Source: Candidatus Sulfotelmatobacter sp. (GTDB lineage: Bacteria > Acidobacteriota > Terriglobia > Terriglobales > Acidobacteriaceae). From it: DNA of 34,737 nucleotides. The DNA lies in the NCBI GenBank assembly GCA_030041215.1, contig JASHOH010000157.1, forward strand, positions 1 through 34,737. Reading direction: 5' to 3'. Shown piece by piece: positions 1 to 21,627 of this stretch. The notes beneath the pieces are model-generated. The model saw only the letters and a list, made by a program, of their open reading frames with translations, ran no database searches and was not told where the DNA came from. A program made the translations under genes and the position numbers. Each line of letters starts with the position of its first letter. The stretch's first letter is position 1.

Positions 1-255
1 AGGCCACGTGGGCGGCTGGAGCCACTGCGCTATTTCTCCATTGCCATCTCCCATGTCGCCGTGACACCCCTCGCAATAGCGGTGGTAGTCGTCCTTCCCG
101 TCGTCGACGTGTCCGGTGTGTCCCGCAACGTGACTCTGCATGTTGTCGCGAGAGGCTATATCCAACGTGGTTAATTGGGCCGTTGAAGTCAGCGGCAGCA
201 TGAAAAATGCGGCCGCACCCACTGCCAGCATCCACTTTTGCAATCCTGTCCGCAT
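1..255 (-). CDS. c-type cytochrome, N-terminal part (cut by window edge)
   Basis: Reading the minus strand from the ATG at 255 gives 85 codons open to the window edge. The first ~26 residues form a signal peptide (MRTGLQKWM, then a hydrophobic AVGAAAFFML stretch ending near STAQ), so the product is exported. Around residue 54 there is a CEGCH motif followed by GDMGDGNGE and then LQPPTWP, the classical class I cytochrome c pattern (CxxCHG, GDG, then a proline-rich turn). It should bind one covalent haem in the periplasm and carry electrons; the axial Met would lie beyond the edge. It starts 35 bases after the stop of the Cyc2-like gene on the same strand, so the two probably form an operon and may be redox partners (inference). 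The family is clear; the exact subclass is not, because the C-terminal part is missing. Confidence 0.85.
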   Translation of the reverse strand, partial: MRTGLQKWMLAVGAAAFFMLPLTSTAQLTTLDIASRDNMQSHVAGHTGHVDDGKDDYHRYCEGCHGDMGDGNGEIAQWLQPPTWP

Positions 256-290
256 ATCCGTCCCTCACGTACGTCTCAAGAAATCGATAG

Positions 291-1814
291 TTAGAAATCG
301 AAGTCAAGCGCAAGCAAGAATTCGTTGATGTTGGTGCTCGTGGTAAGAGCCGTAATCGGCGAAACAGGCCCCGTACCGTTCTGAAGGAAGTGGTTGATTT
401 CCGCCTGCACCGCCATACCGGCTCTGCTGGTCATGAACGGGTTCCAACGAATCAGCGCGTTGTAGTTGTTGATATTTCCCAGGTTCGAAGGAGACGGGCC
501 CGTCGCACCGGTCGGGTTGGTACCCAAGAATCCTAGGCCATCGGCCTGCCGCGACATTTTCTCCAGTTCGTAATCGGCAATGAAGATCAGTTGCGGAGTG
601 AAAACGTAACGGGCCTCGAAGGTGACGCCGTTCCAGGTGGGCCCTTGAGCTCCAGCCGGGAGGGACGTGCCTGGAGTGTTGTTGGGTAAGCAACTCGGAG
701 GACAGGACGGAATTCCATTCTCAGCCGGGCCTGGATTGATCGGGTTGCCATAGCCCTGTCCGAACCACGCATTGTCCAGCCCGTGCTGCGTGACCACGTT
801 CAGGTCAAAGTGCGGACCGAAGTAAAATTGGGTCGTGATGCCGACGCGATAGAAGCTCTTGTTAGTGATCCCTGAGCCGGCAATCGGGATTCCGCCGGTC
901 GTTCGATAGTAGGTGGCGGCTTCTCCCACAAAAGCGTAGGCCCCGAGACGCTGCACGTCCCACTTGCCTGCATCAATGGCTTGATCGAAGGTAAAAAACC
1001 CACTGTACGAATTGGCGCCCGTGATCAGGTTCTCATTGCCGTCGCTTGAACTGAGCAAGGCTGCGGAGACTCGCGTGCGGTCGTTATAGGAGTGCCCCAT
1101 GTACTCCATGCCCAGTTGGTTGCTGCCCATCTGTCCGAAGATGTTTCCATCGTTAACGGGAATGAAGTGGTAGGTCTGATAAATGCCTCCGTTTGCCGTC
1201 AGCCCAACCATTCTCTTCTCGGAAAGGAGGTTGTTGAGTTCGAACCGGCCCATCTTAATGTTGAGCCAGGAACTCCCGAAAAGATTGTCGAAACGCGCCA
1301 TGACGGTTTCGAAATGGAAGGTGGCGGTCGGGTCCGAAGAAGGCAGCACATAGAACGAAATGTTTTTCTCCAACGTGCCGCCGGTGTGGAAGTCGAGGCC
1401 GCTAAGATCGAAGCCGGAAGAAGTGATCCGGTCGATCGCCCCGTTAGTAGTAACGGCTACCGGAGTCACCGATGTGTTGTATACGTCAACATCGCTGGCG
1501 GTGCTGTAACGGTGCCAAATGGGCGTGATGCGGAACGTGACCGGCCAATACGATGGATTCTGCCAAATCGGGGCATCACGATCGTTCATAATCTGGTAGC
1601 CGTTATCGCGGAACTTCAACCCGAAGTTGTTCAGGATCGGCCAGGTTTCATGGCAGGCGGAACAACGCAATCCGTACTTGCGGGCGAAGGCAGGCAGGGC
1701 ATTCGCGGATTGGCTGCAGGTCACAGTTACGAACAGCAGAACCAGGCCCATTGCGGCCAAGGACGTGGCAGCGTGAAATGCTTTGCGAAGACGGGGACGA
1801 CTAGAATCGTACAT
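291..1814 (-). CDS. Cyc2-like fused monohaem cytochrome / outer-membrane beta-barrel protein
   Basis: 507 aa. I chose the ATG at 1814 because GAGGAG lies 7 bases upstream; a TTG six codons earlier is also open. Signal peptide to about SANA, then FARKYGLRCSACH, a c-haem site, followed by FGLKF and DNGY. This order (FAR..G..CxxCH...P.L..FG..F...GY) is the signature I know from the haem end of Cyc2, the fused cytochrome-porin of Fe(II) oxidisers, and from related uncharacterised acidobacterial and deltaproteobacterial cytochromes. The remaining ~430 residues alternate polar and aromatic/hydrophobic residues as in a beta-barrel and end in LLALDFDF, with a terminal Phe typical of outer-membrane proteins. 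Inferred role: electron transfer across the outer membrane to the periplasmic cytochrome encoded just downstream. The substrate is unknown; iron oxidation is only a hypothesis. Confidence 0.75.
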   Translation of the reverse strand: MYDSSRPRLRKAFHAATSLAAMGLVLLFVTVTCSQSANALPAFARKYGLRCSACHETWPILNNFGLKFRDNGYQIMNDRDAPIWQNPSYWPVTFRITPIWHRYSTASDVDVYNTSVTPVAVTTNGAIDRITSSGFDLSGLDFHTGGTLEKNISFYVLPSSDPTATFHFETVMARFDNLFGSSWLNIKMGRFELNNLLSEKRMVGLTANGGIYQTYHFIPVNDGNIFGQMGSNQLGMEYMGHSYNDRTRVSAALLSSSDGNENLITGANSYSGFFTFDQAIDAGKWDVQRLGAYAFVGEAATYYRTTGGIPIAGSGITNKSFYRVGITTQFYFGPHFDLNVVTQHGLDNAWFGQGYGNPINPGPAENGIPSCPPSCLPNNTPGTSLPAGAQGPTWNGVTFEARYVFTPQLIFIADYELEKMSRQADGLGFLGTNPTGATGPSPSNLGNINNYNALIRWNPFMTSRAGMAVQAEINHFLQNGTGPVSPITALTTSTNINEFLLALDFDF

Positions 1815-1967
1815 GACCGGACTCCTCGGCAAAGATCAAATCGGTTGTTTGTTGTGTTGAAGGCCGTGCTCCCACAAAAGCACGGGTGCATCGAGAAAGA
1901 AAAAAACACCTATTTTTCGCCGGCGGTAAAACGGAGTTAAAGGGTCGTACCACCGTACCGGAGCGGA

Positions 1968-2138: not shown

Positions 2139-3272
2139 GTGAACTTCCCGGTATTGAATCGAAGCTGTCGGGTTGCGCGCACTAAAAATCGTATCGCTAG
2201 TTTTTTGCCGCTTCTGTTTTTGCTGGTGGCGCTTCCGGCCGCCGGCCGTGACAAAAATAAAATGGTCTATGGGGAAGGGTTTGTCGTTGATATCCCCATG
2301 CCCATAAGCGAAGTCGAGCCGGTTGTGGAAGAAGTTGCACGGAGCGGGATTATCCACGGAACCAAAGAGTACAACAAGGACCAATTCATTGCGGGAGCGC
2401 AGCCTGCCAAATCTTCAAGCCTTTTTCCCCCGTGGACGGAAGGCGGCAAAGTTTTCTACAAAGTTCGCGAAAAAGCGCTTGACCCCCGTAACTTCCAGAA
2501 CAGCGAAGACGAGGGCACCCTGGCCGTCCGCTACGTGGTAAAGGCGGATGGGGAAAAGAACACGATTTTGCGGATCGACGCGCTCTTTCAGGAGGATGTT
2601 CGCCGCACCATTCACAAATCAAATGGATCGGTCGAAAGCGAAGAATACAGGGACATTCGCGATCACCTCGATGCCGTCCAACTGATGAAGAAGGAGGATG
2701 CGGAGGCCAATGCCAGGCGGCAGGAAATACTCGAGAAAAAAAAGCATCCCTCGGCTGATCTGCCCTTCATGGTTCCGGACAGCTCCAGCCGGGGATCCGA
2801 AAGCCTGGCTGATTCCGGCTCGAAAACCTCCGCATCGTATTCCGAGCCGCCGTCATCCGGCAGTCCTGCTTCCGTTCAAACGGCGACAGCGCAGATTCCT
2901 GCAGCTGCACCTGCGCCTGTACAACCCGGAGCCGGCCAACCCGCGGGAATACCAGTAACGGCGGCCGAGACTTCGCCCGCGCAGGCTTCACCAGCTCCAG
3001 CTTCCGCTTCCGTGGATTTAGCTGCTCCGGCGGTCCCAGGTCAAACTCTCGAAGAACGCGTTAAAGGCCTGCGGCGGGAGGTCGAGAGGCTGGTGAAATC
3101 GCCCGGAGCTGCCCTCAGGTCCGCGCCCTTCCACACGGCCAGCACGTTGGCGACTTTATCGAGCGGCACCGAAGTCTTGATTCTCATTTCCACACCATAC
3201 TGGTATGGCGTGGAGACTCACGAAGGTCAGCACGGCTGGATCATGCGCGACGAACTGGAGGATCTGCGATGA
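2139..3272 (+). CDS. exported protein with C-terminal SH3-like domain, function unknown
   Basis: 377 aa, GTG start with GGAG five bases upstream. A basic N-terminus (NRSCRVARTKNR) and hydrophobic SFLPLLFLLVALPAAG form a signal peptide. Residues ~45-190 make a globular domain that I do not recognise, with mixed strands and many charged residues. Residues ~205-300 are a Pro/Ala/Ser-rich linker. A short coiled coil follows (LEERVKGLRREVERLV, ~305-322), then an SH3b-like end (LRSAPFHTASTLATLSSG, later YWYGVETHEGQHGWI). Bacterial SH3 domains usually bind peptidoglycan or other envelope polymers, so a periplasmic or cell-surface role is inferred. The stop overlaps the next ATG by four bases (ATGA), so the two are co-translated. 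The next gene has the same layout: they look like tandem paralogues. Confidence 0.75.
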   Translation: MNFPVLNRSCRVARTKNRIASFLPLLFLLVALPAAGRDKNKMVYGEGFVVDIPMPISEVEPVVEEVARSGIIHGTKEYNKDQFIAGAQPAKSSSLFPPWTEGGKVFYKVREKALDPRNFQNSEDEGTLAVRYVVKADGEKNTILRIDALFQEDVRRTIHKSNGSVESEEYRDIRDHLDAVQLMKKEDAEANARRQEILEKKKHPSADLPFMVPDSSSRGSESLADSGSKTSASYSEPPSSGSPASVQTATAQIPAAAPAPVQPGAGQPAGIPVTAAETSPAQASPAPASASVDLAAPAVPGQTLEERVKGLRREVERLVKSPGAALRSAPFHTASTLATLSSGTEVLILISTPYWYGVETHEGQHGWIMRDELEDLR

Positions 3273-4651
3273 TGGCACCGTCGCCGACTCGCCGAACCTA
3301 TGGCTTGCTCTTCCTGGCTGCATTGTGCGCTCTGCTGTTTGCCAGCACCGTCCGCAGTACGGGACAAAGCAATGGATTGGAGCGAACCTTCCCGCAATCG
3401 AAAGCTGCGGTCGAAAGTGCGCTCCGGCAGATGCAGTCGGCCATCTCAGGCCGCTTGCCGATTCTGGATGGCTTTGCCACTTCGTCTGATCATCCACTCG
3501 AGAACTATCATCGCGGCTTCTACCAGGCCAAATTCCAGGTGAGCGCACTGCCCTCCGGTGGTTCGGTCGTGCATGTGAACGTGGAAGTTACCGCCTGGTT
3601 CGCCGATCCCACGTCCAGCCGCTCGGGTTATCAGCTGTTGAAGTCGAATGGGCGACTGGAAGCGGACATGCTCGATCAATTGTCCGAGCAACTCGGCCAG
3701 GGCGGCCCTGCGATTTCTTCGGCGCCCGCTTCGCGCCAAGCATTTCCTTCCGAGCGCATAGCATCTACCGAACAAAAAGCGCCAGTGGAGCCGTCGTCCG
3801 GATCAGGGCAGGCGGGTTCTGAGCCGGTAAGGAATGCAGCATCAACCGAAGCCAGGATTGCAGCGCCGCAGCCGCAGCTCCCCGAAAATGGAGGCGGGCT
3901 TAGTTCGCCCCTAGCCAAGGGTCTCTCGCAAAATGAGGCTACATCCTCAATCCCGGAGAATAAAGTTACGGCTAATGATGAACGCGCGCTGCACGCCGAA
4001 CTGGAGAGTCTGCAAGAAATCCTGAAGAACCAGGCGCATCCCAAGAACCTGGTCGCAGTGAAAAAATCAGGAACACCGGTCGTGGCTTCGGCCAGCCTCA
4101 ATGCGAAGACGCTGTTCCTTGCCAGCGCCCACGATGAATTCGAGATGCTGGATTACAACCAGGATTGGGTGCACGTGCGCATTTCCGGCCTCTCGCGAGG
4201 ATGGATATGGCGCAACAGTCTGGAGATGCCCGACAATATTCCCACAAGCGACGCGGCGCCCGATGCGATGCCCGCTGCGGCCGATGTATTTCATGTTACT
4301 CGCGAAGAAACTGCGCAGTTCCCAGGCGACTGGGCGCCGCTGCGCGGTAAAAGTGTGAAGATCATTTCCGTGGAAAAAGCGAATGAAAGCAAGGAAGTCG
4401 GGCCTCAGCTCAGGCTGGAGTTTGTGAAGTCGTTGTTCGATCAGAATTTTGCCGGGCTGACTCAGAAAGCGCAGGAACTTTCGGGAATTGTCGTAATCTT
4501 CGATTCGGCCGATGGCGGCATGATCGCGGCGCCTTTGGCGGTCCTCCAGCAGTGGAAGGCCGGAACATTGTCGGATGCGGCGCTATGGCATCAATGTTTT
4601 TTTGATCCGCCGGAAACCTTTAACGCATCTACGGTTTCGCCGAGCCAGTGA
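3269..4651 (+). CDS. exported SH3-like protein, paralogue of the upstream gene
   Basis: 460 aa, starting in the ATGA overlap with the preceding gene. The signal peptide spans ~8-30 (TYGLLFLAALCALLFAST). Residues ~35-145 form an unrecognised globular domain (FPQSKAAVESALRQMQ; VVHVNVEVTAWFADP). A low-complexity linker rich in Pro, Ser and Ala follows, then a short coiled coil (LHAELESLQEILKNQ, ~242-256) and an SH3b-like domain (~265-325, ending DWVHVRISGLSRGWIWRNSLE). Unlike its neighbour it has an extra C-terminal domain of ~110 residues (KSVKIISVEKANESK; ELSGIVVIFDSADGG) of unknown nature. The order globular domain, linker, coiled coil, SH3 matches the upstream protein, suggesting duplication followed by divergence. 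Probably envelope-located; no enzyme motif seen. Confidence 0.72.
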   Translation: MMAPSPTRRTYGLLFLAALCALLFASTVRSTGQSNGLERTFPQSKAAVESALRQMQSAISGRLPILDGFATSSDHPLENYHRGFYQAKFQVSALPSGGSVVHVNVEVTAWFADPTSSRSGYQLLKSNGRLEADMLDQLSEQLGQGGPAISSAPASRQAFPSERIASTEQKAPVEPSSGSGQAGSEPVRNAASTEARIAAPQPQLPENGGGLSSPLAKGLSQNEATSSIPENKVTANDERALHAELESLQEILKNQAHPKNLVAVKKSGTPVVASASLNAKTLFLASAHDEFEMLDYNQDWVHVRISGLSRGWIWRNSLEMPDNIPTSDAAPDAMPAAADVFHVTREETAQFPGDWAPLRGKSVKIISVEKANESKEVGPQLRLEFVKSLFDQNFAGLTQKAQELSGIVVIFDSADGGMIAAPLAVLQQWKAGTLSDAALWHQCFFDPPETFNASTVSPSQ

Positions 4652-4813: not shown

Positions 4814-5749
4814 GTGAGCGCGATGATCCAGGCAAATGTTTTGATTCGCAGGCAGGCGTCGGTCTTGTTGCGTGATTACGCCGAGTTGATGAAGCTGCGC
4901 GTAACCACTCTGATTGTGATGACGGCCTGGTGCGGCTACTACTTTGGGGCGCAGAAGAGTGGGGTATCGTCACTTTCCTGGGGTTTATTCCATGCGCTGC
5001 TGGGAATCGCGCTGGTTTCCAGCGGGACGGCAGCGCTCAATGAAGTGATGGAGCATGAGGTGGATGGGCGCATGCGCCGCACGGCACAGCGTCCTTTGCC
5101 GGCCGGGCGCATGAGCGTGCGTCATGCCACCATCGTAGGTTCGGTGGCCACCTTGGGCGGATCGATCTATCTGGCCGCATTTACCAACCCGCTCACTGGT
5201 TTGCTGACGTTTCTGACCTCGGTTGTATATCTGGCTGCTTACACGCCGTTGAAGCGGGTTTCGCCGGTCTGCACATTCGTAGGCGCTTTTCCCGGTGCCA
5301 TGCCGGGGGTTTTGGGCTGGACCGCTGCCCGCGGCCGGCTCGAATGGGGCGCTTTGATTCTGTTTGCCATTCTTTTTGCGTGGCAATTTCCGCACTTCTT
5401 CTCCATCGCCTGGCTTTACCGCGAGGACTACGCGCAGGGCGGAATTCGCATGCTGCCCGTGGTAGAGGATGATGGACGCTCGACGACGCGGCGCATCGTG
5501 GCCTATTCGTTGATTCTGATTCCGCTTAGTGTTTTGCCGAGCGTGTTTGGAATGGCGGGAAAAATCTATCTGGTCGGCGCGATCGTGTTCAGCTTTGGTC
5601 TCTTCTACTTCGGCGCACGGCTTGCGTTCGCCCACTTACCGTTAAACAATCCACGGTCGAAAATGCTTGCTCGCCACGTTTTGCAGGCTACGATAATTTA
5701 CCTGCCCCTGCTGTTCGCGCTCATGATGAGCAATCCGGCGCGGCCTTGA
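4814..5749 (+). CDS. ctaB: haem O synthase (protohaem IX farnesyltransferase)
   Basis: 311 aa, the normal length for CtaB/CyoE of the UbiA superfamily. It transfers a farnesyl group to haem b, making haem O for terminal oxidases, in the inner membrane. The prenyl-diphosphate site is visible at N76-x3-E80-x3-D84 followed by MRRTAQRPLPAGRM; the second position is Glu where Proteobacteria have Asp. The second conserved loop, YREDYAQGGIRMLPVV, is intact at ~202-217. About eight or nine hydrophobic segments are present. The GTG at 4814 has no clear ribosome site; the ATG at 4823 preceded by GAG is an alternative. No oxidase subunit genes lie beside it here, so it is probably transcribed alone or with genes outside this operon. 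Confidence 0.93.
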   Translation: MSAMIQANVLIRRQASVLLRDYAELMKLRVTTLIVMTAWCGYYFGAQKSGVSSLSWGLFHALLGIALVSSGTAALNEVMEHEVDGRMRRTAQRPLPAGRMSVRHATIVGSVATLGGSIYLAAFTNPLTGLLTFLTSVVYLAAYTPLKRVSPVCTFVGAFPGAMPGVLGWTAARGRLEWGALILFAILFAWQFPHFFSIAWLYREDYAQGGIRMLPVVEDDGRSTTRRIVAYSLILIPLSVLPSVFGMAGKIYLVGAIVFSFGLFYFGARLAFAHLPLNNPRSKMLARHVLQATIIYLPLLFALMMSNPARP

Positions 5750-8400: not shown

Positions 8401-9387
8401 GTGGGAAATCCATTGCACATCTTCATCACAGGCGCGGCAGGATTTATCGGCAGTCACATGGTGGATCGACTGCTTTCGGCAGGCCACAAGGTTGTCGGCT
8501 GCGACAACATGTCGACGGGGCAGCGGCGGTTTCTGAATGAGGCGATAACCAATTCGCAATTCACGTTCCATGAAGCTGATCTGCTGGATTTGGAAACTCT
8601 GACTCGGGCGATGAAGGGTACAGAGTTGGTCGTACATTTTGCTGCCAACGCTGACGTGCGATTCGGCACGCAGCATCCGCGCAAGGATCTCGATCAAAAT
8701 ACGATTGCCACCTGGAATGTGCTCGAGGCAATGCGCCAGCAGCGGTGCAAACGCATCGTATTCTCTTCCACCGGATCGATCTATGGAGAGCCGGAGATTT
8801 TTCCCACGCCGGAGACTTGTCCGTTCCCCATTCAGACTTCGCTGTACGGCGCTTCCAAACTGGCTGCGGAGGGCCTGATTCAAGCCTACTGCGAAGGTTT
8901 CGGAATGCAGTCTTACATTTTCCGCTTCGTCTCGATTCTCGGCGAGCGTTATTCGCACGGGCATGTTTTCGACTTTTACCAACAGCTTGCCGAGCATCCT
9001 GATCGTCTTCACGTGCTGGGCGACGGTCATCAGCGCAAGTCGTATCTATACGTTCACGACTGTATCGACGCGATTGTGACTGCTCTGGATCGTGCCAATG
9101 ACAAAGTAAACGTCTTCAATCTGGGAACGGACGAATATTGCGAGGTCAACGATTCGATCGGCTGGATTTGCGAGTATCTTGGCGTTCATCCCAAACTGAC
9201 CTATTCGGGCGGCGAGCGGGGGTGGGTGGGCGACAGCCCGTTTATTCTGCTGGATTGCTCGCGCATTCGCGCGTTGGGCTGGAAACCGCGACTCACGATT
9301 CGTGAGGCAGTTCTGGCAACGATCAAATATGTGAGTTCGGAAGCTGCTTCAAAGGCGCCTTCAGTCGCGAGCCAGCCCCGTTCGTGA
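8401..9387 (+). CDS. NAD-dependent sugar epimerase/dehydratase (extended SDR, GalE-like)
   Basis: 328 aa, GTG start. The N-terminus has the Rossmann motif GAAGFIGS (11-18) for NAD(H), then DLLDLE and VHFAANADV, where adenine and nicotinamide contacts sit. The catalytic set is present: Ser in FSSTGSIYGE (~122-131) and Y149-x3-K153 in YGASK. The C-terminal half carries the sugar-nucleotide part (RKSYLYVHDCIDAI; FNLGTDEYCEVND). This fits UDP-glucose/UDP-GlcNAc 4-epimerases or related GDP/dTDP-sugar enzymes; the exact substrate cannot be fixed from sequence. It follows the GT21-like gene after 110 bases on the same strand and probably makes activated sugar for it or for the polysaccharide locus downstream. 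Confidence 0.88.
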   Translation: MGNPLHIFITGAAGFIGSHMVDRLLSAGHKVVGCDNMSTGQRRFLNEAITNSQFTFHEADLLDLETLTRAMKGTELVVHFAANADVRFGTQHPRKDLDQNTIATWNVLEAMRQQRCKRIVFSSTGSIYGEPEIFPTPETCPFPIQTSLYGASKLAAEGLIQAYCEGFGMQSYIFRFVSILGERYSHGHVFDFYQQLAEHPDRLHVLGDGHQRKSYLYVHDCIDAIVTALDRANDKVNVFNLGTDEYCEVNDSIGWICEYLGVHPKLTYSGGERGWVGDSPFILLDCSRIRALGWKPRLTIREAVLATIKYVSSEAASKAPSVASQPRS

Positions 9388-9482
9388 AATCCGAAGGCAA
9401 TACGACAGCCACCGAAAACCGCGAAAAACACGTATTAAACAGGTTCTCAGCCAGATGGCCGGAACCAGCTATACTCTTCGCC

Positions 9483-11489
9483 ATGAATTTACGCACAAGC
9501 TCACGAAAAACTTTTCTCTTCCTGTTCTCTGCCGTCGCATTTTTGTTCGCCGGCCCGGGCGCATTTGCTCAGCATCACGGAGGCGGAACCGCGAGCCCAT
9601 CGCCTTCGCGGGCCGCCGACATACTCGACTCGATGCCACACGCTAAACGAGTTGGTCATGTTTCGCTTTCCCCGGACGGAACTTCAGTGGCTTACTTTGC
9701 AGATCGAAAGCTCACGATCGCGCCAGTGGCTGGCGGTTCGCCGAAAGTCATCGCAATAGAAGGTGATCTTCCACTGCGCGATGTCGCCTGGTCTGCGGAC
9801 AACAAACATATTGCGTTCATCGCCGATGTCGCGGGAGATGCTCCTGCCGCGCAGATTTGGACAGCGGCTCCAGATGGAAGTGCAGCCGTCAAGCACGCGG
9901 AGTTGAAAGGTTATGTCGAGAGTCCACGCTTTTCTCCTGATGGATCAAAGCTTGCGATTCTGTTCATCGAGGGGATTCCGCGAATTGCCGGGCCGCTACA
10001 GCCGATGACGCCGCTGGCGGGCGTGATCGATGAGAAGGTGTACGAGCAGGGGATTGCGACTATCGACCTGAGCAACAATCGTCTGACGCAGGTTACACCG
10101 CCGGATATGTATGTGTATGAGTATGAGTGGACACCTGACGGCCGATCCTGGGCGGCAATTGCCGCTCATGGGGCGGGCGATGCTAATTGGTACATCGCCA
10201 GAATTTATCGCATCGATGCCGCGAGCGGCGAGATGCATGAGATTTACAAGCCAAAGCTGCAGATCGCAGACGCGCGCGTTTCTCCCGACGGCAAAACGAT
10301 CGCCTTTATCGAAGGGTTGATGAGCGACGAAGGTTCGACTGGGGGAGAGATTTTTCTGGTTCCGATTACGGGTGGAGCTGCCCACAATGTGACTCCCGAT
10401 ATTCAGTCATCTCCCTCTGCTCTCGCGTGGACAGCAAACGACCGCATCACGTTCGCTGAAAACGTCGATGGGAGCTCGGGTTTCGGCAGCGTTGATCTTC
10501 AAACCGGCAAAGTCCAGACGCTTTGGACGGGCGAAGAAGCCGCCGGTCCTACAGGTACGGCATGGATTTCAAATCCCGCTCTCTCAAGCGGCAAGATTGT
10601 TACTGCGATCGTGCGGCAATCGGCGCGCACTCCCAGTGAAGTTTGGGCGGGCGAGATCGGCAAATGGAACCAGATCACTCATTTGAACGATGGAGTCGAA
10701 CCGGTCTGGGGCGAAATGAAAAAAGTGCACTGGATGAATGGCTCAATGCGCATTGAAGGTTGGCTGCTGCTGCCCAGGGACTTTGATGAAAACAAGAAGT
10801 ATCCGCTGATCGTAAATGTGCATGGAGGGCCGTCAGCCGCGTGCATGTCACGCTGGGACGAGCGCGGCATGGGTTCTGAATCGGCAATGGGTTACTTTGC
10901 TCTGTGCCCTAACCCGCGGGGAAGCTACGGGCAAGGAGAAAAATTCACGCAGGCCAACGTGAAAGATTTCGGCGGCGGCGACTTTCGCGACATCATGGCG
11001 GGAGTGGATGCGATCTCTAAGCAATATCCTATCGACACAAAACGACTGGGCATTCGCGGCCACAGCTATGGCGGCTACATGACGATGTGGGCGGAAACCC
11101 AGACCAACCGATTTGCGGCTGCCGTTGCTGGCGCCGGCCTGTCTGATTGGGTGAGTTACTACGGTCTGAATGACATCGATCAGTGGATGATTCCGTTCTT
11201 CGGGGCTTCGGTCTACGACGACCCCGCCGTTTACGCCAAGAGCGATCCCATGCACTTCGTGAAGGCGGTGAAGACGCCCACGCTCATTCTGGTCGGCGAT
11301 CGAGATGGCGAAGTGCCAATGGAGCAGTCGGTTGAGTGGTGGCATGCACTGGAAACCTTGCATGTACCGGTGAGGCTCGTCGTGTATCCAGATGAGGGGC
11401 ATGCAATCATGAAGCCGGCCGACGCGCGTGACTACACAGAGCGTTCTCTGGAGTGGTTTGAAGCGTGGTTCGCTAAAGCGGAGCCATAA
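9483..11489 (+). CDS. secreted S9-family peptidase (prolyl oligopeptidase / acylaminoacyl peptidase type)
   Basis: 668 aa from the ATG at 9483. The frame is open further upstream to 9384, but the ATG at 9483 is followed at once by a clean signal peptide (MNLRTSSRKTFLFLFSAVAF ... GAFAQ). Residues ~45-410 contain WD40-like PD40 repeats (SLSPDGTSVAYFADRK; RFSPDGSKLAIL; RVSPDGKTIAFIE) forming the beta-propeller that restricts access to the active site. The C-terminal alpha/beta hydrolase has the full triad: S528 in GHSYGGYM, D608 in GDRDGEVP, H640 in DEGHAI. The nearby GGPSA loop contributes the oxyanion hole. It should cleave short peptides in the periplasm or outside the cell. The gene stands alone and converges with the following minus-strand gene. 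Confidence 0.93.
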   Translation: MNLRTSSRKTFLFLFSAVAFLFAGPGAFAQHHGGGTASPSPSRAADILDSMPHAKRVGHVSLSPDGTSVAYFADRKLTIAPVAGGSPKVIAIEGDLPLRDVAWSADNKHIAFIADVAGDAPAAQIWTAAPDGSAAVKHAELKGYVESPRFSPDGSKLAILFIEGIPRIAGPLQPMTPLAGVIDEKVYEQGIATIDLSNNRLTQVTPPDMYVYEYEWTPDGRSWAAIAAHGAGDANWYIARIYRIDAASGEMHEIYKPKLQIADARVSPDGKTIAFIEGLMSDEGSTGGEIFLVPITGGAAHNVTPDIQSSPSALAWTANDRITFAENVDGSSGFGSVDLQTGKVQTLWTGEEAAGPTGTAWISNPALSSGKIVTAIVRQSARTPSEVWAGEIGKWNQITHLNDGVEPVWGEMKKVHWMNGSMRIEGWLLLPRDFDENKKYPLIVNVHGGPSAACMSRWDERGMGSESAMGYFALCPNPRGSYGQGEKFTQANVKDFGGGDFRDIMAGVDAISKQYPIDTKRLGIRGHSYGGYMTMWAETQTNRFAAAVAGAGLSDWVSYYGLNDIDQWMIPFFGASVYDDPAVYAKSDPMHFVKAVKTPTLILVGDRDGEVPMEQSVEWWHALETLHVPVRLVVYPDEGHAIMKPADARDYTERSLEWFEAWFAKAEP

Positions 11490-11529
11490 ACCTGACTTGC
11501 GTTCTTCAAAGCGCCTAGTTTCCCTTGTT

Positions 11530-12927
11530 TCAGTAAGCGTTCTTGCTGGTGAACATCCGCAAGAACGTCAAGGTGATGATCTGGAGATCAAAAGTAAGGC
11601 TCCAGTTATGAAGGTAGTAAAGATCGTATTCCACACGTTTGGCGATGGAAGTATCGCCGCGCCAGCCATTCACCTGGGCCCAACCAGTGATCCCCGCCTT
11701 AAAGAAATGGCGCGCATTGTAGGTTTCAAACTCGTTCAAGAAACGCTTGACGAAGTAGGGCCGCTCAGGTCGTGGACCGACGATGCTCATGTCTCCTTTC
11801 AACACATTGAGAAACTGTGGCAGTTCGTCGAGATTTGTTCTCCGCAAGAAACCGCCGAGTCTGGTGCGCCTGGGATCATCTTCCTCTGTCCAGCGCGTGT
11901 CCGCTTCCCCTTCCGGTCCAGCTCTCATGGTTCGAAACTTCAGAATACGGAACACCTTGCCATTCAATCCCACCCGATCTTGCCTGAAAAGAGCCGGGCC
12001 GGCGCTCTCCAGCTTGACCGTCAGGGCGATTAGCAGCATAAGTGGCCAGGTAACGGACAGGATCAAGAGAGATAGAGCGACGTCAAAAATTCGCTTGTAG
12101 ACCAGATAAGAACCCGACTCTGCCAGGGTGGGACGGAGATCAAGCATGTTAATGCCACCCAGATCGATCAGGCGATTAGCCACGCCGATTCCCGGAGCAA
12201 AGTCAATGGCCATTCGGGTCGGCACACACAGCCGCTCCAGCATGGGCAGAATCAAACGCATGTCGTCCAACCGGTCATGCGGCAGCGCGATGACGACGTC
12301 ATCGATGGCATCGCCGTTGGAAAAATTCGGCACACTCTCCAGTTCGAACACCGGCGCGCCGTCGATCTCAACTGGGTGACCCGGGAGTCGAACATATCCT
12401 GAGATGCGCCCTGGCAGCACCTGGGCGTTGGTCAGTGCGCGGGCGACCTGCTTGGCGTATGATCCCGTGCCCACCATGAGGATCTTGACCTCGCTCCGTC
12501 CTGAAACGCGGGCCCACTCAAGGAAGACGCGAAAAAGAACGCGCAACATGGTTGCCAGGACGAACAGTACGGCGGCGCTTAACGCGACGACGACGCGAGA
12601 AAAGCTAACCTGGCGATACAGGAAGGCTCCCGCGAGCACGATGGCATAAGTGAAGGCCAGCGCCTCGAGCAAACGGCGAGATTTTCCGCCGGGAAGGTAC
12701 AGCTCTTCGATATTCCAAAGGCCGGATTCTTCCGCAGCAATCGCCCACGCGATGGTGGTGAACAGAATGATGCTCCAATAGGAGTGGAGCCCGAATGGGC
12801 TGCGCCTGTCGGAAAGCATGTTAATGCCGAAATGCACCTTCACGGCGATGAAATACGCCAGCGCAGGCAACAACAACGTGCTGATTCTCAGAAAGAACCG
12901 GGCGTGACTCAAGCGACTTCGTATCAT
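11530..12927 (-). CDS. polyprenyl glycosylphosphotransferase (WbaP/WcaJ type), copy 1
   Basis: 465 aa. It transfers a sugar-1-phosphate from a nucleotide sugar to undecaprenyl phosphate and so starts the repeat unit at the inner membrane. Four N-terminal membrane helices (~15-125) are followed by a cytoplasmic CoA-binding/Rossmann-like region (KILMVGTGSYAKQVARAL). After one more helix (FDVALSLLILSVTWPLMLLI) comes the catalytic C-terminal domain, with KFRTM, DELPQFLNVLKGDMS, VGPRPERP and GITGWAQVNG all visible. Length and layout match full-length WbaP-like enzymes. The protein is a close paralogue of the product of 20233-21627: same start MIRSRLS, same end (..NAY), and well over half of the residues identical by eye. 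The stop lies 40 bases from the convergent S9 peptidase stop. Confidence 0.95.
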   Translation of the reverse strand: MIRSRLSHARFFLRISTLLLPALAYFIAVKVHFGINMLSDRRSPFGLHSYWSIILFTTIAWAIAAEESGLWNIEELYLPGGKSRRLLEALAFTYAIVLAGAFLYRQVSFSRVVVALSAAVLFVLATMLRVLFRVFLEWARVSGRSEVKILMVGTGSYAKQVARALTNAQVLPGRISGYVRLPGHPVEIDGAPVFELESVPNFSNGDAIDDVVIALPHDRLDDMRLILPMLERLCVPTRMAIDFAPGIGVANRLIDLGGINMLDLRPTLAESGSYLVYKRIFDVALSLLILSVTWPLMLLIALTVKLESAGPALFRQDRVGLNGKVFRILKFRTMRAGPEGEADTRWTEEDDPRRTRLGGFLRRTNLDELPQFLNVLKGDMSIVGPRPERPYFVKRFLNEFETYNARHFFKAGITGWAQVNGWRGDTSIAKRVEYDLYYLHNWSLTFDLQIITLTFLRMFTSKNAY

Positions 12928-13437: not shown

Positions 13438-15972
13438 ATGATGAAAAAGTGGAAAAGCAAATTCCTGCGAGATTGGCCGATTGGGGCTTACCCGTACATT
13501 GCCGTCATGGTTATTTGTGGTTCGATGATGTGTGCCGCCCAAACGCCGGCAGAAGAACAAGGCCCGGCCGAAACCGCGAAGAACGATAATCAAGCTGTGG
13601 ACCCTGTCGCAGCTCCGGCGCCAGTCGATCTGAAATCTCTTCCCCGCAATCTTCTCGTCGATCAAAAGAATTTCTGGCTGACCCCGCTGCACGTGAGCGT
13701 GTCGCAATTGCATTGGATTGTCCCGCTGGGGTTCGCGGGGGCAGCTTTATTGGCAAGCGATACGGCGATTGAAAAACACGTTCCTACAGATCCTGGCACG
13801 GTCTCGCACGCGGTTACCGCATCAAATGCCGGGCTTGCAGCTCTCGCGAGCGTTGGCGCAGGGATGTATTTATGGGGACATGCCACGCATAGCGACCAGC
13901 TGCGTGAAACCGGCCTTCTCGCCGGCGAGGCCGGTATCGATGCAGTTGTGGATACCGAAATACTCGAGTATGCGTTTGGCCGGGAATCTCCTTTCACGGG
14001 CAGCGGCAAGGGGCATTTTTTTGAGGGAGGAACATCGTTTCCTTCGGACCACGCTGCCGTCAGTTGGGCGATTGCAAGCGTGATCGCGCATGAATATCCC
14101 GGACCGCTCACTAGCCTGCTGGCTTATGGGACCGCTACGGGCATCGATGCGGCTCGTTGGATTGGGCACAAACATTTTGCCGGGGATCTAGTCATAGGCA
14201 GCGCACTGGGGTGGTATCTGGGACAGCAAGTTTTCCGCACCCACTCTCGGTACAGCGATGCGGAGATTGCAAAATGGGGAACGTTCAGCAAAGGAGACGA
14301 AGATGCCTCTCATCAGCCACGCAATATGGGATCGCCATACGTGCCTCTTGATAGCTGGGTATACGCTGCAATGGAGCGGCTCACCGCTCTTGGGTATATT
14401 CATTCCGGCTTTGCCGATATGCGTCCTTGGACGCGCATGGAATGTGCCCGGCAGATCGAAGAGGCGTCCGATCTCATGGCTGGTGATGAAGCGCCGCTGG
14501 AAGCGACCAGGGTTTACGATTCACTGCACAAAGAATTTGAGCAGGAAATCAGTTTGCTTAACGGCGGTACGAACGCAGAAGTGCGTCTCGAATCAGCCTA
14601 CACTCGAAGCACGGAAATTGCCGGAAAACCTCTCACCGACGGCGATCATTTCGGGCAAACAATCATCAATGACTATGGACGGCCAGAAGAAAGGGGATTT
14701 AACAACGTTACTGGGATGTCGGGATGGGCGGCCTATGGTCCGCTCGTCGTCTACGCTCGAGGCGAGTATCAACACTCTCCGGAAGCCCCTGCGTTGCCTG
14801 AAAGTGCTCTCCAAGCGATTTCAAACGCCGACTTCAGCCGCAGTCCAGTTCCACCGCCCTTTCCCGTCCCGCCTGATGTGCCAACTCCAGCGTTTAACCA
14901 AGGCCGGTTTCTCGACACATACGTTGCATTGAATCTTTCCGACTGGCAGCTTTCCTATGGAAATCAGAGCCTGTGGTGGGGCCCATCGCAAGGCGGACCG
15001 CTGATGTTCAGCAACAACGCGCAGCCGCTGCGAATGTTCCGGGTGAATCGCGTCGTTCCCTTTACCTTGCCGGTACTCGGGCCTATGCGGTTGGAAGGTT
15101 TCATCGGGCAGTATTCAGGTTACGAGTTCATTTACACGCCGTCGGGACTTGCAGGACAGTACGGAGCGTCGCTCAATCCGCAGCCCATCGTTCACGGCGA
15201 GAGACTCAGTTTCAAGCCCACCTCCAATCTTGAAATCGGGTTTTCCCGCACCACGGACTATGGCGGCCCGGGTTATCCGCTGACGTTGCATTCGTTCTTG
15301 CGCAGTGTTTTTTCCACCGGCAACACCGAACCAGGAAACCCCAATAAACCGGGATCGCGGCGGGCCGGCCTAGATTTCAGCTACCGTATTTCGCGGCTTC
15401 GCGACAAAATGACGTTCTACGCGGAGGGTTTGGCCGAACATGATGAGGTTTCGCCGCTGATTGGTCCCGATGTGGCAGCTTGGCTGGCGGGAATTTATAT
15501 TCCAAGGCTCCCCAAGATTGCAAAGCTCGATCTTCGGCTGGAAGGTGGTTACACAGACCCGCCCTATAGCGGCGGAGACGTGGCATATGGAGCGTTTTAT
15601 TGGGATGGAACGTGGATCACGGGATTTCAAAATGCAGGACATTTGATGGGAAGCTGGATGGGCCGCCAAGGCCAAGGAGCGCAGGCCTGGACAACCTATT
15701 GGTTCACGCCGCGGAATAAACTGCAATTCGGGTTCCGGCATCAGAAGGTGAGCCAGCAGTTCATCGCCAACGGCGGCACCTTGGCAGATGCGAATGTCCG
15801 CGCCGAGTTTTGGCCTCGCGGCACTATTGGAGTCTCCACTTGGGCGCAATATGAACGTTGGCTCTTTCCAGTAATTCAGCCGAACGCGTCGAGAAATGTA
15901 ACAGCAGCGGTAGAAATTCTCTTGACACCAAAGCTTTTCCTGCGTTCACATTCCAGAGCAGACCAGCCTTAG
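13438..15972 (+). CDS. PAP2-family phosphatase fused to Wzi-like capsule assembly beta-barrel
   Basis: 844 aa, ATG start, with a signal peptide ending near SMMCAAQ (~residue 35). Residues ~80-275 are a PAP2 domain: FPSDH (H205) and AR-x5-H-x3-D (R240, H246, D250) keep the catalytic histidines. However, the first motif K-x6-RP reads EYAFGRESP, with Glu177 and Ser184 replacing the phosphate-binding Lys and Arg. A helical SLH-like stretch follows (YVPLDSWVYAAMERLTALGY, ~303-350). Residues ~370-840 are a long strand-rich barrel like Wzi (WQLSYGNQSLWWGPSQGGP; RLEGFIGQYSGYEF), the outer-membrane lectin that organises capsule at the surface. Either activity fits the polysaccharide locus: lipid-pyrophosphate hydrolysis and surface assembly. 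Putting both in one exported chain is unusual. Confidence 0.85.
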   Translation: MMKKWKSKFLRDWPIGAYPYIAVMVICGSMMCAAQTPAEEQGPAETAKNDNQAVDPVAAPAPVDLKSLPRNLLVDQKNFWLTPLHVSVSQLHWIVPLGFAGAALLASDTAIEKHVPTDPGTVSHAVTASNAGLAALASVGAGMYLWGHATHSDQLRETGLLAGEAGIDAVVDTEILEYAFGRESPFTGSGKGHFFEGGTSFPSDHAAVSWAIASVIAHEYPGPLTSLLAYGTATGIDAARWIGHKHFAGDLVIGSALGWYLGQQVFRTHSRYSDAEIAKWGTFSKGDEDASHQPRNMGSPYVPLDSWVYAAMERLTALGYIHSGFADMRPWTRMECARQIEEASDLMAGDEAPLEATRVYDSLHKEFEQEISLLNGGTNAEVRLESAYTRSTEIAGKPLTDGDHFGQTIINDYGRPEERGFNNVTGMSGWAAYGPLVVYARGEYQHSPEAPALPESALQAISNADFSRSPVPPPFPVPPDVPTPAFNQGRFLDTYVALNLSDWQLSYGNQSLWWGPSQGGPLMFSNNAQPLRMFRVNRVVPFTLPVLGPMRLEGFIGQYSGYEFIYTPSGLAGQYGASLNPQPIVHGERLSFKPTSNLEIGFSRTTDYGGPGYPLTLHSFLRSVFSTGNTEPGNPNKPGSRRAGLDFSYRISRLRDKMTFYAEGLAEHDEVSPLIGPDVAAWLAGIYIPRLPKIAKLDLRLEGGYTDPPYSGGDVAYGAFYWDGTWITGFQNAGHLMGSWMGRQGQGAQAWTTYWFTPRNKLQFGFRHQKVSQQFIANGGTLADANVRAEFWPRGTIGVSTWAQYERWLFPVIQPNASRNVTAAVEILLTPKLFLRSHSRADQP

Positions 15973-20232: not shown

Positions 20233-21627
20233 TCAGTAGGCATTCCTGCTATTGAACATCGAGAACATTGTCATTATGATGATCTGGAGATCGAAGGTCA
20301 GGCTCCAGTTGCGTAGATAGTACAAGTCATATTCCACGCGCTTGGCGATTGAAGTATCGCCGCGCCAACCGTTTACCTGCGCCCAGCCTGTGATTCCCAC
20401 TTTGAACATGTGGCGAGCGTTATAGCGCTCAAATTGCTCCAGGAAGGTCTCGACGAAATAAGGGCGCTCGGGGCGCGGACCGACAACGCTCATGTCTCCC
20501 ATAAGAACATTGATAAATTGGGGCAACTCATCCAGGTTCCACTTGCGCAGCAGAGCGCCGACAGCAGTTCGCCGTGGGTCCTTTGGCGATGTCCAACGTG
20601 TGTCTGCTTCTTCCCTGCTCCCCTGCTTCATCGTGCGAAACTTGATCATGTGGAAGACGCGGCCATTGAGACCGACGCGATCCTGGACAAAGAATATGGG
20701 ACCTCGACTGGTCAGCTTTATAGCGATCGCGGCGGTAAAGGTGACAGGCAGGCTGAGTATTAAAAACAGTATCGAGAAAACAACGTCAAATATGCGCTTT
20801 TGAAAGAGGTATGAGCCACTTTCTGCCAGGGTCGAGCGGAGATCGAGCATGTGCATGCCGCCCAGATCAATGAGCCGGTCACGCACTCCGACATTGTCTC
20901 CCAGGTCGACAATTACTCGTATTGGCGCACAGAGTTTTTCCAGATAGGGCATTACTTTTTGCACGTCTGCCAGTCGAGGGGCCGGAAGAGCAATGATGAC
21001 GTCACTAATGGAATGCCCGTTTGAGAACGTTGGGATCGCATTCACTTCGTGCACTGGGCCTTCCACAGCGACCTTCTGATCCGGCAGCCGCACGAAGCCA
21101 ACAACTCGACAGGGAAGAACCTCGCCCTGTTCCAGTGAAAGAGCAGCGCGGCGAGCAAACTGGTCTGTTCCTACCATCAGAATCTTGGCCGCTTTTCGGT
21201 CCTTCTTACGCAGGAACTCGAGAAACACTCGAAAAACAACTCTCGTGATGGTTGCATAAACGAAGAGCGCGCAGGCGCTCAGGCCTATAACGAGCCGCGA
21301 ATAGCTCGCTCCTCGATAGAGAAATCCAACCGCCATTACCACGGCGTAGGTGAAGGCCATCGCTTCCAACAGGCGGCGGCTCTTCCCGGAGGGAGCGTAA
21401 AGCTGCTCAACATTCCAAAGCCCCGCTTCTTCCGCCACGATCGCCCAGAGAATGGTGGTCAACAACAAAACGCCCCAATACGATGGGAGTCCGGAAGGAG
21501 GTTGCCGCGAGAAAAAGAAATTAATGCCGAACCGAATTCTAACGGCAGTGAAATAGGCGAGGACGGGAAGCAGCAACGTTAAAATTCTGAGGTAAAGCCG
21601 TACGAAACTAAGGCGACTGCGAATCAT
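20233..21627 (-). CDS. polyprenyl glycosylphosphotransferase (WbaP/WcaJ type), copy 2
   Basis: 464 aa, ATG at 21627. Same fold and length as the product of 11530-12927: four N-terminal helices, Rossmann-like middle (KILMVGTDQFARRAALSLEQ), then the catalytic domain with KFRTM, NLDELPQFINVLMGDMS, VGPRPERP and GITGWAQVNG. Identity with copy 1 is strongest at both ends and lowest in the middle region (residues ~150-240). Each copy should begin a repeat unit on undecaprenyl phosphate. Having two in one locus suggests either two polymers, two alternative first sugars, or redundancy after duplication. It is divergent from the SLBB export gene, with a 267-base shared upstream region carrying hairpins. 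Confidence 0.95.
   Translation of the reverse strand: MIRSRLSFVRLYLRILTLLLPVLAYFTAVRIRFGINFFFSRQPPSGLPSYWGVLLLTTILWAIVAEEAGLWNVEQLYAPSGKSRRLLEAMAFTYAVVMAVGFLYRGASYSRLVIGLSACALFVYATITRVVFRVFLEFLRKKDRKAAKILMVGTDQFARRAALSLEQGEVLPCRVVGFVRLPDQKVAVEGPVHEVNAIPTFSNGHSISDVIIALPAPRLADVQKVMPYLEKLCAPIRVIVDLGDNVGVRDRLIDLGGMHMLDLRSTLAESGSYLFQKRIFDVVFSILFLILSLPVTFTAAIAIKLTSRGPIFFVQDRVGLNGRVFHMIKFRTMKQGSREEADTRWTSPKDPRRTAVGALLRKWNLDELPQFINVLMGDMSVVGPRPERPYFVETFLEQFERYNARHMFKVGITGWAQVNGWRGDTSIAKRVEYDLYYLRNWSLTFDLQIIIMTMFSMFNSRNAY

Follow-up and report, generated by a model that had tools for sequence, protein, structure and literature searches.

Cyc2 proteins, as known from Acidithiobacillus, from Mariprofundus PV-1 and, as Cyt572, from Leptospirillum, can be recognized by rules given by Keffer et al. 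(2021; PMC8406198): an AXPXFAR[Q/K][T/Y] motif, a single CXXCH, a PXL about four residues beyond it, a length of at least 365 aa, a 16-stranded outer-membrane porin barrel and a place in one of Clusters 1-3, with OprP and OprO named there as structural templates for Cyc2PV-1. The three activity-tested Cyc2 proteins named in PMC8406198 and PMC7029218 oxidize Fe(II), a role in Mn(II) oxidation has also been proposed (PMC9040806), and Cluster 3 is the group whose function the authors of PMC8406198 call most uncertain. In the rus operon of Acidithiobacillus, found also in Acidiferrobacter and Acidihalobacter, the gene order is cyc2-cyc1-cup-coxBACD-rus, and its Fe(II) induction is described in PMC2754497. 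Acidobacterial homologues have been placed around Cyt572 in a published network (PMC10654088), and the paper that we compared for the rus operon mentions Acidobacteria four times, in connection with homologues of Cyt572 and of PioABC/MtoA rather than with a rus operon. A search of titles and abstract openings, whose coverage excluded most subscription papers and all preprints, returned no report of a rus-like operon in Acidobacteriota.

The window analysed here, 34,737 bp of DNA from a peat-soil acidobacterium, Candidatus Sulfotelmatobacter, is the whole of one contig (C42 of genome G000), which ends 255 bases into the gene that follows cyc2L. Its features relevant to the comparison are:

1..255, minus strand: 5′ part (85 aa) of a dihaem cytochrome c gene, which follows cyc2L and is cut by the contig end; its first CXXCH is CEGCH.
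291..1814, minus strand: cyc2L, for a Cyc2-like cytochrome-porin of 507 aa; ATG at 1814, stop codon (293-291) included.
297..1541, minus strand: predicted beta-barrel, residues 92-506 of cyc2L (AlphaFold2 and Foldseek).
1596..1700, minus strand: haem segment, residues 39-73, ALPAFARKYGLRCSACHETWPILNNFGLKFRDNGY, with the AXPXFAR[Q/K][T/Y], CXXCH and PXL consensus (PMC8406198).
1650..1664, minus strand: CSACH, residues 51-55, the sole CXXCH in the 507-aa sequence.
1698..1814, minus strand: signal-peptide-like segment, residues 1-39, from the sequence and a predicted helix at 7-33, with ...SANA before LPAF.
1822..1827, minus strand: GAGGAG, Shine-Dalgarno-like by sequence reading, 7 bases before the cyc2L ATG.
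2139..3272, plus strand: orf1, 377 aa, a conserved operon partner with a weak C-terminal SH3-like domain (PF08239, 25.1 bits; cut-off 27).
3269..4651, plus strand: orf2, 460 aa, a conserved operon partner with no Pfam or NCBIfam match.
4814..5749, plus strand: ctaB/cyoE, haem O synthase, 311 aa (TIGR01473, 254.6 bits; cut-off 210.3).

The original prediction placed a Cyc2-like gene of a probable acidobacterium at 291-1814; the interval is correct for the gene, whose minus strand had gone unsaid, and the host bears out the phylum. The plus-strand reading of the same interval was rejected for the stops within its frame, and a scan of 1780-2200 gave no promoters or terminators. From its N terminus the protein consists of the signal-peptide-like stretch, whose cleavage site would lie after ...SANA, then LPAFARKYGLRCSACHETWPILNNFGLKFRDNGYQ, then about 430 residues running to Phe507. 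The signal-peptide-like N terminus, the haem motif LPAFARKYGLRCSACH with one CXXCH in the protein and the strand-rich region of some 430 residues ending in Phe were all read correctly beforehand, whereas the downstream FG..F...NGY exists, as FGLKFRDNGY, with two residues and not three before the N (FG..F..NGY). Set against the rules of PMC8406198, cyc2L has the motif as A39-L-P-A-F-A-R-K-Y47, one CSACH in 507 aa, P59-I-L61 starting at H55 + 4, and a length well within the range of at least 365 aa. Neither Pfam nor NCBIfam gave a useful match for the protein, so annotation could miss such a gene; PF07642 (BBP2 porin) was matched by only three of 76 family members (best E 3.4e-5). Searching PDB sequences gave no match for the protein itself and, with the family profile, two weak ones (E 0.4 and 1.1).

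An AlphaFold2 model built on an alignment of 76 family members (mean pLDDT 78.3, pTM 0.77) supports a porin-type barrel, with a helix at residues 7-33, at the signal peptide, and 18 strand segments listed between residues 92 and 506, or 17 if two that are parted by one residue are joined. Its best PDB fold in Foldseek is PorB (3wi5, E 8.2e-13), other leading matches being the porins BpsOmp38, OprP (2o4v) and OprO (4rjw), the last two within the best eight. Of the 16-strand barrel with an N-terminal haem plug that the original prediction named as a check, the model gives a porin-type fold with 17 or 18 listed strand segments. The haem segment is weakly modelled, at block-mean pLDDT of about 39-54, and values fall below 50 at residues 35-50, 58-64 and 71-84, which cover parts of that segment and its surroundings, so that the model supports neither a haem plug nor a haem position.

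Cyc2L thus has in common with the Cyc2 proteins of Acidithiobacillus, Mariprofundus PV-1 and Leptospirillum (Cyt572) a signal peptide, the motif, a single CXXCH, PXL and a length above 365 aa, as well as, in its model, a porin-type barrel, OprP and OprO being among the structural relatives of both (PMC8406198). It differs in carrying the K-Y form of the motif, and in the porin region hardly any sequence similarity, or none, could be detected to the Cyc2-like proteins from Proteobacteria with which it was compared: Caballeronia gave one 54-residue alignment outside the haem segment, and the Methylocystis protein is 24% identical over cyc2L residues 3-178. A DNA pattern for the haem motif of Cluster 1 Cyc2 found no match in viral_contigs.

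Recurrence in other genomes shows that the gene is no product of chance. Within the genus it is common, its family profile matching at E<=1e-50 in 36 of 41 genomes, our own included. Matches at E<=0.001 occur in 51 of 61 genomes (again with our own), many of them covering only the haem motif of other family members. Across the phylum, 87 genomes out of 396 gave matches at E<=1e-10, most of which are confined to the haem segment or to roughly the N-terminal 200 positions. P41, F43, A44, R45, K46, Y47, C51, S52, A53, C54 and H55 are invariant in all 76 aligned proteins, and A39 is kept in at least 90% of them. H241 is likewise invariant and H344 nearly so, which makes both candidates for the distal haem ligand. 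A contig scan with strict patterns (CSACHE[STA]W and LN[YN]FG[QL][KT]F[KR]) brought up 112 relatives, from which 80 loci were kept, a few of them sharing one genome. All 80 are annotated as acidobacterial, under Candidatus Sulfotelmatobacter, Acidobacteriaceae, Acidobacteriales, Terriglobales, Terriglobia, Acidobacteria/Acidobacteriota, Candidatus Acidiferrum and Acidipila, a distribution that, given patterns this strict, says nothing about absence from other phyla.

For a phylogeny we aligned 62 rows, namely the window protein, 33 hand-picked from 78 full-length family proteins, 22 other acidobacterial proteins drawn from 29 loci tried, and six plasmid-borne proteobacterial ones, a comparison set without the reference Clusters 1-3. 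The cyc2L family forms a 36-row group (support 97/99), in which the window protein falls in a four-row set with Candidatus Sulfotelmatobacter proteins (100/96), and the six proteobacterial proteins occupy a side of the tree of their own (100/100). The nearest neighbours of the family come from genomes G324, where cup, cyc2L and dihaem stand together, and G216, which has cyc2L and dihaem. An 'operon' label, applied also to rows without cox, requires three changes on the tree, because the family rows L055 and L056 are labelled 'other'.

The genes that follow cyc2L encode a dihaem cytochrome c, a cupredoxin (cup) and an aa3-type oxidase, and thereby supply the redox-linked relatives on which the original prediction had staked the Cyc2 assignment. 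In the host genome the operon is apparently split between two contigs, the window (C42) and C126 (locus L032). On the latter, the final 225 residues of a cyc2L are followed by the dihaem gene, which is complete only there and in relatives, then by cup, coxB, coxA and the beginning of coxC1, in the same order as in relatives. Where the two contigs overlap (window 2-956, C126 4891-5859), identity is 98.9% over the start of the dihaem gene (71-254) and only 78% over cyc2L, a sharp switch at the intergenic gap that suggests either a duplicate of the gene, variation between strains or recombination affecting a surface-exposed gene.

The full order cyc2L - dihaem - cupredoxin - coxB - coxA - coxC1 - coxC2 - coxD is found in 12 of the 19 same-genus loci examined (L032-L038 and L040-L051). 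Four more (L032, L047, L048 and L050) have it as far as each contig goes, L045 has one coxC ahead of coxB and no coxD match, and L040 and L041 have dihaem and cupredoxin genes without cox; outside the genus, the full order recurs in L039, from another family of the class, and in L083, from another genus of the family. Across the whole set, no other tested operon gene comes between cyc2L and dihaem in any of the 73 loci with at least 1 kb downstream, and both dihaem and cupredoxin are present in all 58 loci with at least 7.5 kb downstream of cyc2L. In 51 of these 58, dihaem, cup, coxB, coxA and coxC occur in that order, with coxA followed by the two coxC genes in 47 of these 51, coxD after the preceding genes in 47, and the first seven matches exactly in the full order in 43; one coxC precedes coxB in L109, L112 and L163. 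The remaining seven (L119, L166, L168, L170, L173, L174 and L175) are missing cox, as is L084, which lies inside the clade. Upstream, orf1 and orf2, which are perhaps assembly factors, are divergently oriented in 51 of the 59 loci with at least 4.5 kb on that side, and among the same 59, ctaB is divergent upstream in 28 and present on either side in 39.

Adjacency of an ordinary cox cluster was considered as an account of this layout and rejected: 12 loci outside the clade (L085-L096, with unequal and in several cases short flanks) have no coxB match, and their sole coxA match, in L085, is 23% identical over 184 residues. L085 itself, from a distant acidobacterial family (G324, 9187-11982), has the order cup - cyc2L - dihaem with no coxB or clear coxA nearby, and the trio may therefore predate its link to cox.

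Of 78 dihaem cytochromes, the 74 complete enough to judge have two CXXCH, with Met133 and Met251 (L122 numbering) invariant. Their profile aligns over most of its length, including both CXXCH, with PDB 6h5l chain B ('Conserved hypothetical cytochrome protein'; E 2e-71), a full-length relative from another organism, presumably an anammox bacterium, and reaches only E 0.25 with cytochrome c4 (c552) of A. ferrooxidans (1h1o). Assignment to cytochrome 579 was rejected (NF033864, 41.1 bits against a cut-off of 280). The cupredoxin, which is fused to a C-terminal PF13620 carboxypeptidase-regulatory-like domain, shows the ligands His and CNxH(P/A)WM (C-x-x-H-x-x-M) in 70 of 72 sequences, the exceptions being L140, without the ligand Cys and Met in the frame taken, and L171, which is cut. 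Its AlphaFold2 model (mean pLDDT 89.2) has amicyanin as the top Foldseek match (E 9.4e-6), and a search of plasmids with the cupredoxin gave 38 records, the ten listed being ~28% identical Sinorhizobium relatives.

The oxidase genes match COX1, COX2, COX3 and COX4_pro in Pfam. The CuA motif is present in 56 of 63 CoxB, the other seven being cut or too short to show it, and no CXXCH occurs in any of the 63. CoxA (e.g. L122, 14173-15960) keeps the Glu of HPEVY and the D-channel Asp in all 53 sequences but lacks the K-channel Lys, a position that is occupied in 51 of the 53 and always by V, I, L or M. The presence of ctaB suggests that the haem of the oxidase is of the A type.

Compared with the rus operon, the acidobacterial order matches for the first seven functions, with ctaB nearby in 39 of 59 loci and, like that operon, with a CuA-bearing cytochrome c oxidase of aa3 type, if the A-type haem is correctly assigned. 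The order coxB-A-C-D is common in cox operons generally, so that only the cyc2-dihaem-cupredoxin series ahead of cox carries independent information. The differences are several: the second gene encodes a dihaem cytochrome of another family than cytochrome c4 (Cyc1), as the E values for 6h5l and 1h1o indicate, the cupredoxin carries a carboxypeptidase-regulatory-like domain, there are two coxC genes and the divergent orf1 and orf2, and the host belongs to a different phylum. Rusticyanin (TIGR03095) was found in none of the 41 genus genomes, in a search that lacked a strong positive control, its 14 control genomes yielding a single match that fell short of the curated cut-off. The cupredoxin shares its fold and its place as third operon gene with AcoP/Cup of A. 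ferrooxidans (PDB 7z3b, 7z3f and 7z3g; Foldseek E 2.6e-4, rank 34), but amicyanin and others rank higher, its C-x-x-H-x-x-M loop is short, PF13620 is extra to it, and AcoP gave no sequence match to it at E<=10. The acidobacterial operon is rus-like in architecture and is not filed as a rus operon.

We consider it likely, at a probability of about 0.58, that cyc2L encodes a Cyc2-type outer-membrane cytochrome-porin heading an operon for an inward, O2-respiring electron chain, with Fe(II) as the most likely donor. In the sequences the Cyc2 motif, the single haem site and the gene order are in place, and the CXXCH, Met, type-1 copper and CuA ligand motifs are intact; the operon genes would form a single transcript and the porin would lie in the outer membrane. 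The single c-haem, which would lie either at the opening of the barrel or within it, would be reduced by a one-electron donor outside the cell, most probably Fe(II) in dissolved or weakly complexed form. The dihaem cytochrome c of the periplasm would then take up the electron, perhaps by way of the cupredoxin or in parallel with it, and hand it on to CuA of the aa3-type oxidase (CoxB-CoxA-CoxC), where O2 would be reduced, CtaB supplying haem O as the precursor of haem A. The original prediction of electron exchange with an extracellular donor or acceptor is supported, and of the two a donor is the likelier, given the conserved linkage of the operon genes to a terminal oxidase with CuA. It is on account of this linkage that we propose an inward direction, along which the chain would conserve energy, and on account of the Cyc2 precedents that we propose Fe(II), by analogy, as donor.

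The same inward chain might naturally be fed by another reductant outside the cell, such as Mn(II) or, in peat, humic substances in reduced form or quinols, a possibility that we regard as clearly less likely than Fe(II): Cyc2 has been proposed for Mn(II) oxidation (PMC9040806), and the tree separates the cyc2L family from the six plasmid-borne proteobacterial Cyc2-like proteins. Many of the loci, moreover, come from peat samples (palsa, bog and fen). Humics are abundant in peat. Against such donors, the gene order mirrors that of an Fe(II) operon, and Fe(II) is what the three activity-tested Cyc2 proteins oxidize (PMC8406198, PMC7029218).

Far less probable are two readings that give up the inward chain. 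If the barrel were a sensor, a protective ferroxidase or an uptake porin, its haem would stand outside respiration and its partners would belong to an ordinary cytochrome c oxidase; consistent with this, cyc2L, dihaem and cup occur without cox at 7/58 loci and at L040, L041 and L084, and the other Cyc2-like genes of the phylum whose surroundings were examined do not adjoin cox. The dihaem gene nevertheless follows at every one of the 73 loci, and the Cyc2 motif and haem site are invariant in 76/76 proteins, which makes a non-respiratory role improbable. Outward transfer, with electrons exported to Fe(III), humics or electrodes when oxygen is limiting, seems slightly less probable again: cytochrome-porins can in principle conduct both ways, and Fe(III) respiration, described for certain subdivision 1 isolates, is left unclear for DsrAB-encoding Acidobacteria in PMC6018796, but the CuA-bearing oxidase linked in 51/58 loci points to O2 as the acceptor. 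A single haem is also unlike the known export conduits.

Whether the inward, O2-respiring chain would support autotrophy can be considered from the host genome, which has four COX1 genes and two RuBisCO large-subunit genes. The latter lie in two Calvin-cycle clusters (L185, G000:C152, 6571-13063; L186, G000:C174, 2315-5827), one with rbcL, rbcS and phosphoribulokinase and the other with rbcL and phosphoribulokinase, to which sequence reading adds putative CbbX and transketolase genes. Lithoautotrophy in the host species is possible on this gene content; RuBisCO occurs in only 5 of the 41 genus genomes, and the operon is therefore not tied to autotrophy across the genus. Upstream of one of the Calvin clusters lies a protein with a PF13620 domain that is similar at its N terminus to the operon cupredoxin. 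Elsewhere in the window, PAP2 phosphatase and Wzi capsule-assembly domains are combined in a single 844-aa frame (13438-15972). Part of an apparent exopolysaccharide cluster lies between a pair of bacterial sugar transferases on the minus strand (11530-12927 and 20233-21627) that share 63% identity over 465 positions.

Peat and permafrost soils, in which carbon preservation and methane are governed by iron redox, are rich in Acidobacteriota. The 2018 study that named Candidatus Sulfotelmatobacter describes dissimilatory iron genes as absent from its peatland Acidobacteria MAGs except for one putative metal reductase (PMC6018796), whereas the cytochrome-porin described here is encoded in 36 of the 41 genus genomes that we sampled. 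Since cyc2L stands first in a gene cluster that includes a dedicated oxidase, a testable prediction, namely inward transfer to O2, can be made for a Cyc2 homologue whose function is uncertain. More tentatively, and with the odds somewhat against so broad a claim, the Acidobacteriota of peat, permafrost and soil may include a widespread, unrecognized guild that respires O2 on extracellular electrons, from Fe(II) and possibly Fe-organic complexes or humics, through a rus-like chain of non-orthologous parts, some members, including the host with its two RuBisCO clusters, being autotrophic. The finding opens the question of whether the rus layout has a single origin or several; if the guild is real, that layout would be an ancient or repeatedly assembled module and not a speciality of acid-mine Proteobacteria.
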